Part shown: positions 43,743 to 45,957 of the stretch, one piece after another
Numbering within the stretch: position 1 is the stretch's first letter
Layout of the letters: each line of letters opens with the position of its first letter
Assembly (NCBI RefSeq): GCF_029338555.1
Contig: NZ_CP119989.1
Span: forward strand, 434,001 to 498,000
Length of the DNA stretch: 64,000 nucleotides
Reading direction: 5' to 3'
Source: Halobaculum marinum
GTDB lineage: Archaea > Halobacteriota > Halobacteria > Halobacteriales > Haloferacaceae
Translations under genes and position numbers: made by a program
Notes under the pieces: model-generated
The model's input: only the letters and a program-made list of their open reading frames with translations
Told to the model about the DNA's origin: nothing
Databases searched by the model: none

Positions 43743-43800
43743 CCCGGCACGAGCCCACTCGTTGCCAAGGTACTTGCGCGAGCGCGGACTAACTAAGGTA

Positions 43801-43815
43801 TGTGTTTTTTCACAG
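43801..43815 (+). terminator. T-tract after pdhC
   Basis: TGTGTTTTTTCACAG has six T flanked by the self-complementary TGTG/CACA and lies 59 bp after the pdhC stop. Archaeal terminators are oligo-T tracts, so this is a plausible end for the pdh operon. Confidence 0.5.
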
Positions 43816-43870
43816 CTAACGAGTCTCGGTTCGTTCTCCCGGGACGGGCAGTATCAGCTCCGGGTGCGCC

Positions 43871-44782
43871 GTGAATCCGAGCCGCGTCGACTCCATCGTC
43901 GACCTGACGTACGGGCTGTTGATCGCGCTCTCGGTCGGCCTGATCGTCGTCGCCGGGACCGGCGTCGGGCTGGCCTTCGGCTTCGGCGTCCTGATCTCGT
44001 ACGTCCTCCACGTCGTCTGGAAGATGGCTCGGTTCGACCCGAACTGGATGTCGACCGCCGTCAAAGAGACCGTCGACGAGACGGTCGGGGAGACGGTGGA
44101 GAAGACGGTCGAGGAGACAGTAGACGAGACGGTCGGCGAGACAGTGGAGAAGACTGTCGAGGAGACCGTCGACGAGACTGTCGAGAAGACGGTCGGGGAG
44201 ACAGTGGAGAAGACCGTCGGGGAGACAGTGGAGAAGACGGTCGAAGAGACGGTAGACGAGAAGGTCGGAGAGACTGTCGAAAAGACCGTGGGTGAGACGG
44301 TAGAGAAGACGGTCGAAGAGACAGTAGACGAGAAGGTCGGAGAGACCGTAGAGAAGACGGTTGGTGAGACAGTGGAGAAGACGGTCGAAGAGACGGTAGA
44401 CGAGAAGGTGGGCGAGACCGTGGAGAAGACCGTCGGGGAGACGGTAGAGAAGACGGTCGAGGAGACGGTAGACGAGAAGGTCGGAGAGACCGTAGAGAAG
44501 ACCGTCGGGGACACAGTGGAGAAGACGGTCGAGGAAACGGTCGAGGAGACGGTAGACGAGAAGGTCGGCGAGACCGTGGAGAAGACCGTCGGTGAGACCG
44601 TGGAGAAGACCGTCGGTGAGACAGTGGAGAAGACGGTCGAGGAGACGGTGGACGAGACGGTCGAGAAGACGTTGGAAGAGCGGCTGGCAGCCGAGGAAGA
44701 CGAGGAAGACGAAGAAGACCACGAAGACGAGGAAGCCGAGGCAGACGACGAGCACGACGCGGACGAGGACGACGACCGATGA
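43871..44782 (+). CDS. Membrane-anchored protein with long Val-x-x-Thr tetrapeptide repeat
   Basis: A 303-residue protein from GTG 43871. Residues about 12-50 form two membrane helices (LTYGLLIALSVGLIVVAG, GVGLAFGFGVLISYVLHVVW). Residues about 60-267 are about fifty tetrads of the form (E/K)(T/K)V(E/G/D), grouped into a 24-residue higher-order unit (VGETVEKT repeated, then VEETVDEK) occurring about five times. The tail (about 274-303) is all Asp/Glu/His/Ala. Hydrophobic residues every fourth position predict a long amphipathic helix or rod reaching from the membrane. The stop overlaps the next gene by ATGA. I recognise no family. Confidence 0.7.
   Translation: MNPSRVDSIVDLTYGLLIALSVGLIVVAGTGVGLAFGFGVLISYVLHVVWKMARFDPNWMSTAVKETVDETVGETVEKTVEETVDETVGETVEKTVEETVDETVEKTVGETVEKTVGETVEKTVEETVDEKVGETVEKTVGETVEKTVEETVDEKVGETVEKTVGETVEKTVEETVDEKVGETVEKTVGETVEKTVEETVDEKVGETVEKTVGDTVEKTVEETVEETVDEKVGETVEKTVGETVEKTVGETVEKTVEETVDETVEKTLEERLAAEEDEEDEEDHEDEEAEADDEHDADEDDDR
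44059..44673 (+). repeat. 12-bp tandem repeat (about 50 units) inside the coding region
   Basis: Units are variants of GAGACGGTCGAG and AAGACCGTCGGG. Neighbouring units differ at synonymous third bases (GTC, GTA, GTG), while the encoded Val-x-x-Thr pattern is kept. This suggests selection on the protein repeat, not simply recent slippage. Confidence 0.9.
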
Positions 44783-45957
44783 TCAGCGTCCTCCTCGTCG
44801 CCGGCGTCCTCGTGTCGATGTTCGTCGCTTACAACATCGGCGGGTCGACCACCGGGCCGGCGTTCGGGCCGGCCGTCGGCGCCGACGCCATCTCGAAACC
44901 CGTCGCCGCGGCGCTGATGGGCGTGTGCTTCTTCGTCGGCGCGTGGACGCTCGGCCGCAACGTCGTGACGAAACTCGGGACCGAACTCGTCACCGACACG
45001 GGCGTGTTCACGCTCGAAGCCTCCATCGCGGTGCTGTTCTTCATCGGCGTCGCGCTCTTAGTCGGCAACGTGTTCGGCGTGCCGGCCTCGACGTCGATGA
45101 CCGCCGTGGGTGCGATCGCCGGGCTCGGGCTGGCTGGCGGCGTGTTGGACCTCGCCGTGATGGGTGAGATCGTCATCTGGTGGGTCGTCTCGCCAATCGT
45201 CGGCTTCTGGGTGTCGCTGATCATCGGCCGGTACTTCTACGCCCGGCTGAACGGGATGGTCGCGATGGAGCGCAGTTCGGGGCCGCTGTTCGACGTCGAC
45301 CGGTCGGGCATCGTCCCCATTCCACGAGTCCACCGGACGACCAACCGCCGGGAACTGGGCGGGACGGTCACCGTCGTCGCCATCGGCTGTCTGATGGCGT
45401 TCTCCTCGGGCACCTCGAACATCGCCAACGCCGTCGCACCGCTGGTCGGCAGCGGTGCGCTGGCGATGAACCCGGCCATCGTCTTCGGCGGCGTCGCCGT
45501 CACCGTCGGGGCGTTCACGATCGCTCGGCGGACCTTGGAGACGATGGGCAGCGACATCACCGAGCTCCCCCTCACCGCGGCGATCGTCGTCGCGTCGGTC
45601 TCCTCGACGCTGGTCGTGTTCCTGTCGGCGCTCGGCATCCCCGCGAGCTTCGTCATCATCGCGACGATGTCGATCGTCGGGTTGGGCTGGGGGCGAGCCA
45701 CCCGACCGATGACCGTCCGCGACGTGGCCGCCGGCGACGGTGGCGCGCCGGTCTCGGTCGACGCACTGGCGGCCGACGAAGAAGGTGAGGACCTGCCGCC
45801 CATCGGCACGGAGGACGCCGACGACATCCCCGAGCCGGGGTCGCTGTTCAATCCGGTCACGACCGCCCGGGTCGTGCTGATGCAGAACGTCGTCCCGGCT
45901 ATCGCGACGGTCGGCTCTTACCTCACGTTCCGTTTCGTGCCGCTGTTCGGGCTCTGA
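44779..45957 (+). CDS. pit: PiT-family inorganic phosphate transporter
   Basis: A 392-residue membrane protein with about 10 helices and two signature repeats: YNIGGSTTGPAFGPAVG (residues 15-31) and FSSGTSNIANAVAPLVG (about 213-229), the haloarchaeal variants of the PiT GANDVANA motif. It imports phosphate with Na+ or H+. The ATG at 44779 overlaps the repeat-protein stop by 4 bp, so the two are translationally coupled. Many haloarchaeal pit genes are paired with a PhoU or DUF47 gene; here the partner is the repeat protein. Confidence 0.88.
   Translation: MISVLLVAGVLVSMFVAYNIGGSTTGPAFGPAVGADAISKPVAAALMGVCFFVGAWTLGRNVVTKLGTELVTDTGVFTLEASIAVLFFIGVALLVGNVFGVPASTSMTAVGAIAGLGLAGGVLDLAVMGEIVIWWVVSPIVGFWVSLIIGRYFYARLNGMVAMERSSGPLFDVDRSGIVPIPRVHRTTNRRELGGTVTVVAIGCLMAFSSGTSNIANAVAPLVGSGALAMNPAIVFGGVAVTVGAFTIARRTLETMGSDITELPLTAAIVVASVSSTLVVFLSALGIPASFVIIATMSIVGLGWGRATRPMTVRDVAAGDGGAPVSVDALAADEEGEDLPPIGTEDADDIPEPGSLFNPVTTARVVLMQNVVPAIATVGSYLTFRFVPLFGL

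Follow-up and report, generated by a model that had tools for sequence, protein, structure and literature searches.

A tetrad-repeat membrane protein as a probable partner of one haloarchaeal clade of Pit transporters

Comparison across haloarchaeal genomes makes it very probable that a membrane protein carrying dozens of consecutive four-residue repeats, here called the rod protein, is a dedicated partner of one haloarchaeal Pit (PHO4-family) clade. Its gene lies in a 64,000-nucleotide stretch of Halobaculum marinum DNA (hereafter the window), where the interval 43871-45957 consists of two overlapping genes, the rod gene and then the gene for a PHO4/Pit transporter (Table 1). The fuller reading that we favor, at a probability of roughly 0.55, is that the rod protein would be a dedicated Pit accessory subunit, docked through its membrane hairpin and extending a helical rod that clusters, stabilizes or tunes the transporter.

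Table 1. Features of the rod gene and the adjoining pit gene, in positions of the window
Feature	Position	Strand	Basis
Rod protein, 303 aa, GTG start: two-TM hairpin, V-x-x-T/K tetrads, acidic tail	43871..44782	+	ORF list; homologues share its start and layout
Membrane hairpin and juxtamembrane motif WKMARFDPxWM, residues 1-63	43871..44059	+	Conservation, AF2
Tetrad array, residues 64-271, net charge -47	44060..44683	+	
72-bp (24-aa) higher-order tandem repeat, 7.1 copies, particular to the rod gene	44151..44670	+	TRF
Acidic tail, residues 272-303	44684..44779	+	
ATGA, 4-bp overlap of the rod-gene stop (TGA) and the pit start (ATG)	44779..44782	+	
Pit/PHO4-family transporter, 392 aa	44779..45957	+	PF01384, E 7.4e-40

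The GTG start of the rod gene is supported because homologues keep an MNPxRVD N-terminus, and the hairpin that follows has 17 invariant columns in an alignment of 13 diverse members. An earlier reading of this DNA, made from the letters alone (the sequence-only reading), had described an array of Val-x-x-Thr or Val-x-x-Lys units placed after two membrane helices and closed by an acidic tail, and a 4-bp overlap of its stop with the pit start; both descriptions are borne out. Residues 64-275 form 53 tetrads, 51 of them Val-led in one unbroken run, with VEKT (17), VGET (14), VEET (9), VDEK (5) and VDET (4) as the recurrent types and singletons plus two Leu-led tetrads at the array end as the remainder; the tail holds 23 D/E and a single K/R in 32 residues. 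A run of 51 valines at every fourth position cannot arise from composition by itself: the best run in 20,000 composition shuffles was 10.

The gene downstream passes the PF01384 cut-off comfortably (137.4 bits against 33.7); it also scores 156 bits with a sulfate-permease model whose cut-off is 400. It is a predicted PHO4-family transporter, with phosphate as a candidate substrate. The sequence-only reading proposed that the rod protein may replace the PhoU/DUF47 regulator with which pit genes are often paired, as a helical rod or lever on the transporter, or may sense the membrane. PF01865 (DUF47/PhoU_div) is absent from the Pfam matches of the rod protein, a search of its own genome gave no match to this family and only 7 of 60 relatives have one, which makes a rod protein in the place of DUF47 beside pit a reasonable reading. 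The conserved pairing with pit and the lack of DUF47 here favor the proposal, whereas an array length that varies freely across species tells partly against it; a rigid rod, a lever or a membrane sensor would be speculative roles.

The rod protein belongs to an undescribed, haloarchaea-specific family. Searches with its 68-residue N-terminus found homologues in 38 of the 60 relatives (one of which, in genome G058, turned out to belong to a sister subfamily, B, discussed below) and a family gene in 174 of 293 genomes of the order; outside haloarchaea, a phylum-wide sample gave just three marginal matches. No Pfam family matched over the hairpin, no Pfam or NCBIfam model names the protein, plasmid records label the gene "hypothetical protein" where they annotate it, and our literature search turned up nothing published on this family, nor on haloarchaeal accessory proteins of Pit. 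Matches to CdrL, DUF445, Nexin and apolipoprotein models were set aside as compositional; they differ from member to member. The CdrL_M match (PF24252) covers only 32 of 77 model positions, inside the repeat, and does not make the rod protein a CdrL member; this genome has a better, full-length CdrL_M match elsewhere (C1:2793048).

Members of subfamily A, to which the rod protein belongs, range from 97 to 466 aa and carry up to 56 strictly spaced tetrads. Among 91 distinct members, 2849 of 3068 core hydrophobic spacings (93%) are exactly 4, and the four tetrad columns hold V (96%), E/G/D, E/K and T/K/Q; glycine makes up 24% of one column, and valine about a quarter of all array residues. Long members close with an acidic tail. 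In short ones the tetrads pass straight into a heptad-like coil, followed by a conserved RVDRRPRxDEVEE motif at the end. The longest member (L066, G026:C1:38000-45000) has its last third out of frame, where VEDTVEK gives way to LSKIPSK, a change that may be a frameshift or indel or an assembly error.

How tightly is the family tied to pit? A pit gene lies within 1.5 kb at 75 of 93 distinct family loci, a set partly chosen by similarity to the window, so that close relatives are over-represented; in the fairer sample of the 60 relatives, pit adjoins the rod gene in 26 of 37 gene-bearing genomes. At the 75 loci, pit is downstream on the same strand in 56 cases, divergent in 13, convergent in 4 and upstream in 2, and the genes overlap by 1-8 nt at 41 of the 93 loci, all among the 56 downstream same-strand cases. 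The 18 loci without pit within 1.5 kb include some with short flanks or contigs. In a tree of 93 pits from the 60 genomes, 26 of the 27 rows adjacent to the gene fall into one clade of 43 rows (support 100/99), in which only three rows come from genomes without a rod gene; the second pit of this genome falls outside it. Across all 293 genomes, a best E-value under 1e-130 served as the proxy for membership of this clade: gene and clade occur together in 164, the gene alone in 10, the clade alone in 14 and neither in 105 (odds ratio 123, Fisher p 4e-51, for genomes that are not phylogenetically independent). Ten genera are mixed in this respect, and nine of them contain no genome with gene or clade alone; the genus of the window itself includes one species without either.

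Operon co-transfer inflates this count or explains part of it. The genomes in which the gene is unlinked to pit escape that objection, as all of them have the clade (11 of 11, against 3 of 23 genomes without the gene; p 1.3e-6). The sequence-only reading had pointed to V-x-x-T tetrads beside pit in other haloarchaea as the place to look and had held that a pair not conserved together would speak against it; instead, the pairing proved to be conserved, specific to one Pit clade and recurrent in the sister subfamily.

Several neighborhoods deserve mention in their own right. In Natrialbaceae (loci L142-L157), the family gene often sits between two pits of different type, and one of these loci, L143, carries two copies of it. 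Unlinked family genes at L074, L144 and L076 lie near nucleoside-phosphorylase-like genes, which we recognized by eye; such enzymes use phosphate.

Subfamily B was reached through weak profile matches and has a hairpin of its own (LRGRQTQFYIELLYG...GYLLRIWEKMSIYERILEE). Its tetrads carry E, Q or R where those of subfamily A have T, and they are spaced less regularly, with 4 as the exact spacing in 554 of 707 cases. The comparison of the A and B hairpins (hhalign probability 96.4%, E 1.3e-9) supports shared descent. Subfamily B adjoins pit in 21 of 30 loci, in 20 of them with pit upstream on the same strand. In a quick tree some of the adjacent pits fall inside the large clade and others in a lineage on a very long branch, both lineages being PHO4 matches. 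Two subfamilies, opposite gene orders and two Pit lineages are together the best independent evidence for a function with Pit. At locus L235 (G046:C1:130500-136500), genes identified by eye as TrkA-like and TrkH-like stand where pit would be expected and run divergently from a subfamily B gene, which hints at an association with transporters beyond Pit.

AlphaFold2 predicts the hairpin of the rod protein fairly, as helices 3-28 and 30-55 at pLDDT about 80, and the array as all-helix, for the most part at pLDDT about 41-66 (pTM 0.26); a shorter homologue gave a similar, weaker picture. Helix in the array is predicted at low confidence only. The abundance of valine, threonine and glycine, residues that favor helix little, counts against a helical array. 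Nevertheless, we consider a mostly alpha-helical array probable, because the tetrads of short members pass into heptads, the residues of subfamily B favor helix and the charges follow an i/i+4 pattern, with E-K pairs enriched 1.2-fold and K-K pairs depleted to 0.28 in the family arrays. Subfamily A proteins have on average 1.1 K+R before TM1, 0.07 in the loop and 2.2 after TM2, and their array is predicted to be cytoplasmic; the loop of subfamily B is charged, so its topology is less clear.

The period itself is unusual for a coiled coil, as the sequence-only reading noted: core spacings range from 3.33 to about 3.9, with a record of 3.8 (PMC4786415), and 4.0, the spacing of nearly all family arrays, lies outside this accessible range. 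The formal radius of curvature falls from 111 Å for heptads and 77 Å at 3.8 (19/5) to 18 Å at 4.0, which makes a continuous ordinary rope unlikely. The candidate folds are then a single helix bearing a winding ladder, helices that touch where they cross, a helix of altered geometry, or disorder.

On the reading we favor, the hairpin and the WKMARFDPxWM motif would dock on Pit within the membrane with both ends cytoplasmic, and the array would form a mostly alpha-helical rod in the cytoplasm. Its valines would line up as an i to i+4 ladder with right-handed winding, which may let several rod copies associate. The subunit could then cluster, stabilize or tune Pit, in the position held elsewhere by DUF47/PhoU-like proteins. 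That it acts by oligomerizing or regulating, rather than merely stabilizing, we advance tentatively, at somewhat less than even odds. The rival that survives best, though in our view rather unlikely, is an assembly or stability factor whose hairpin helps to fold or protect Pit, with no regulation and an array that is only a spacer. It would suit the strong conservation of the hairpin and juxtamembrane region, the probable translational coupling at the 41 loci with overlapping genes and an unconstrained array length; however, a spacer would not need such strict spacing or such constancy of valine.

How the array is maintained bears on a further alternative. Residues are kept while codons vary, as had been claimed from the letters: in the Val column pS is 0.63 and pN 0.04, and pN/pS in the array is 0.22-0.37 overall and 0.22 at offset 24, which shows purifying selection. 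Codon choice in the array (44060-44683) departs from that in five neighboring genes, with GTA at 10 of 51 Val (against 1 of 224) and ACA at 8 of 46 Thr (against 2 of 147); in the pooled family arrays ACA reaches 10.3%, against 2.8% in control codons. The data do not support selection for synonymous diversity as a means of avoiding DNA repeats, as repeat k-mers exceed synonymous shuffles in most family genes (0.32 vs 0.16), which points instead to ongoing duplication. Self-identity of the rod array peaks at offset 24, which confirms for this gene the 24-residue higher-order repeat noticed earlier. Among homologues, however, the peak falls at various offsets (4, 8, 12, 16, 20, 24 and more), and the 24-residue unit is therefore a lineage-specific duplication unit, not a structural one for the family; the same variation rules out a beta-solenoid-like coil built on it. 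The free variation in repeat number that the earlier reading would have counted against itself is seen across species, in the range of member lengths and in Natrialba asiatica (175 aa), aegyptia (179 aa) and taiwanensis (171 aa), which are one tetrad apart. Long antisense open reading frames run over the array on the minus strand (43793-44755 and 43816-44514), and an antisense frame matches the rod protein at 45% identity; a 12-bp repeat with a near-palindromic GACGGTC core explains both, so these frames are not genes.

Such turnover would suit a disordered acidic brush whose tetrads persist because slippage or unequal exchange copies 12-bp units, and so would the excess of repeat k-mers, the species-specific length of the higher-order repeat, the low pLDDT and the richness in G, V and T. 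We nevertheless think this unlikely: the Val column hardly changes in residue, subfamily B keeps a hydrophobic residue every four positions though its other columns are quite different, and the tetrads join the heptad-like coil directly. A helical assembly whose period is truly 4.0 is doubtful to the same degree. In it, valine ladders that run straight or wind tightly to the right would lock several helices together, outside the range known for coiled coils; the array would then be a length-variable cytoplasmic module and the protein a new class of transporter subunit.

Might the gene merely travel with pit? The protein could be an independent scaffold for the membrane or for stress, carried in one mobile cassette with pit but functionally unconnected to it; this would account for the members unlinked to pit and for the subfamily B gene divergent from a TrkA-like gene. 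Even where the gene is unlinked, however, it occurs together with the Pit clade, and the two subfamilies are ordered oppositely relative to pit and involve two Pit lineages, which leaves this reading quite improbable. Least credible by far is an extracellular glycosylated fibril like TLP-4 (PDB 9ikm, TASX repeats, presumably from the freshwater glycofibril work), whose repeat is a true tetrad and which matched weakly in the PDB (E 0.065). The charge pattern favors a position inside the cell for the subfamily A array, and Thr is often K/Q/E in A and E/R/Q in B.

Most haloarchaea with this Pit clade carry an undescribed partner that is unnamed in Pfam and NCBIfam, and Pit-type uptake regulation in haloarchaea has probably been studied without one of its parts. 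The array family also supplies about 90 natural sequences of near-perfect period four, on which the upper limit of coiled-coil periodicity (PMC4786415) could be tested.

Finally, we would set the rod protein beside known systems. Like DUF47/PhoU_div (PF01865), it is encoded by a small gene paired, often with overlap, with that of a PHO4-family transporter, and like it is probably a mainly helical partner on the cytoplasmic side; unlike it, the rod protein lacks a PF01865 match and consists of a membrane hairpin and a tetrad array rather than a soluble helical bundle. Set against single alpha-helices of the ER/K type, which have densely alternating E and K/R with i/i+4 pairs and few hydrophobics, the family arrays give a mixed picture: E-K pairs are enriched, but a quarter of the residues are valine and one column is rich in glycine. 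The CdrL middle region, DUF445 and apolipoprotein-like Pfam models resemble it in charged helical composition, but they match no more than portions of the array, differently from one member to the next, and none of them matches the hairpin. Glycofibrils with linear tetrapeptide repeats have been reported from freshwater, according to a title cited in PMC12967142; TLP-4 shares the exact tetrapeptide repeat, whereas the rod tetrads use different residues in a predicted cytoplasmic array. Closest in geometry are the right-handed coiled coils (hendecads, 11/3; 15/4; YadA, 19/5), which likewise place a hydrophobic residue near each turn at a spacing above 3.63, and some family members end in heptads; the rod array, however, holds a strict 4.0 over up to 56 tetrads, beyond the range described for coiled coils (PMC4786415).
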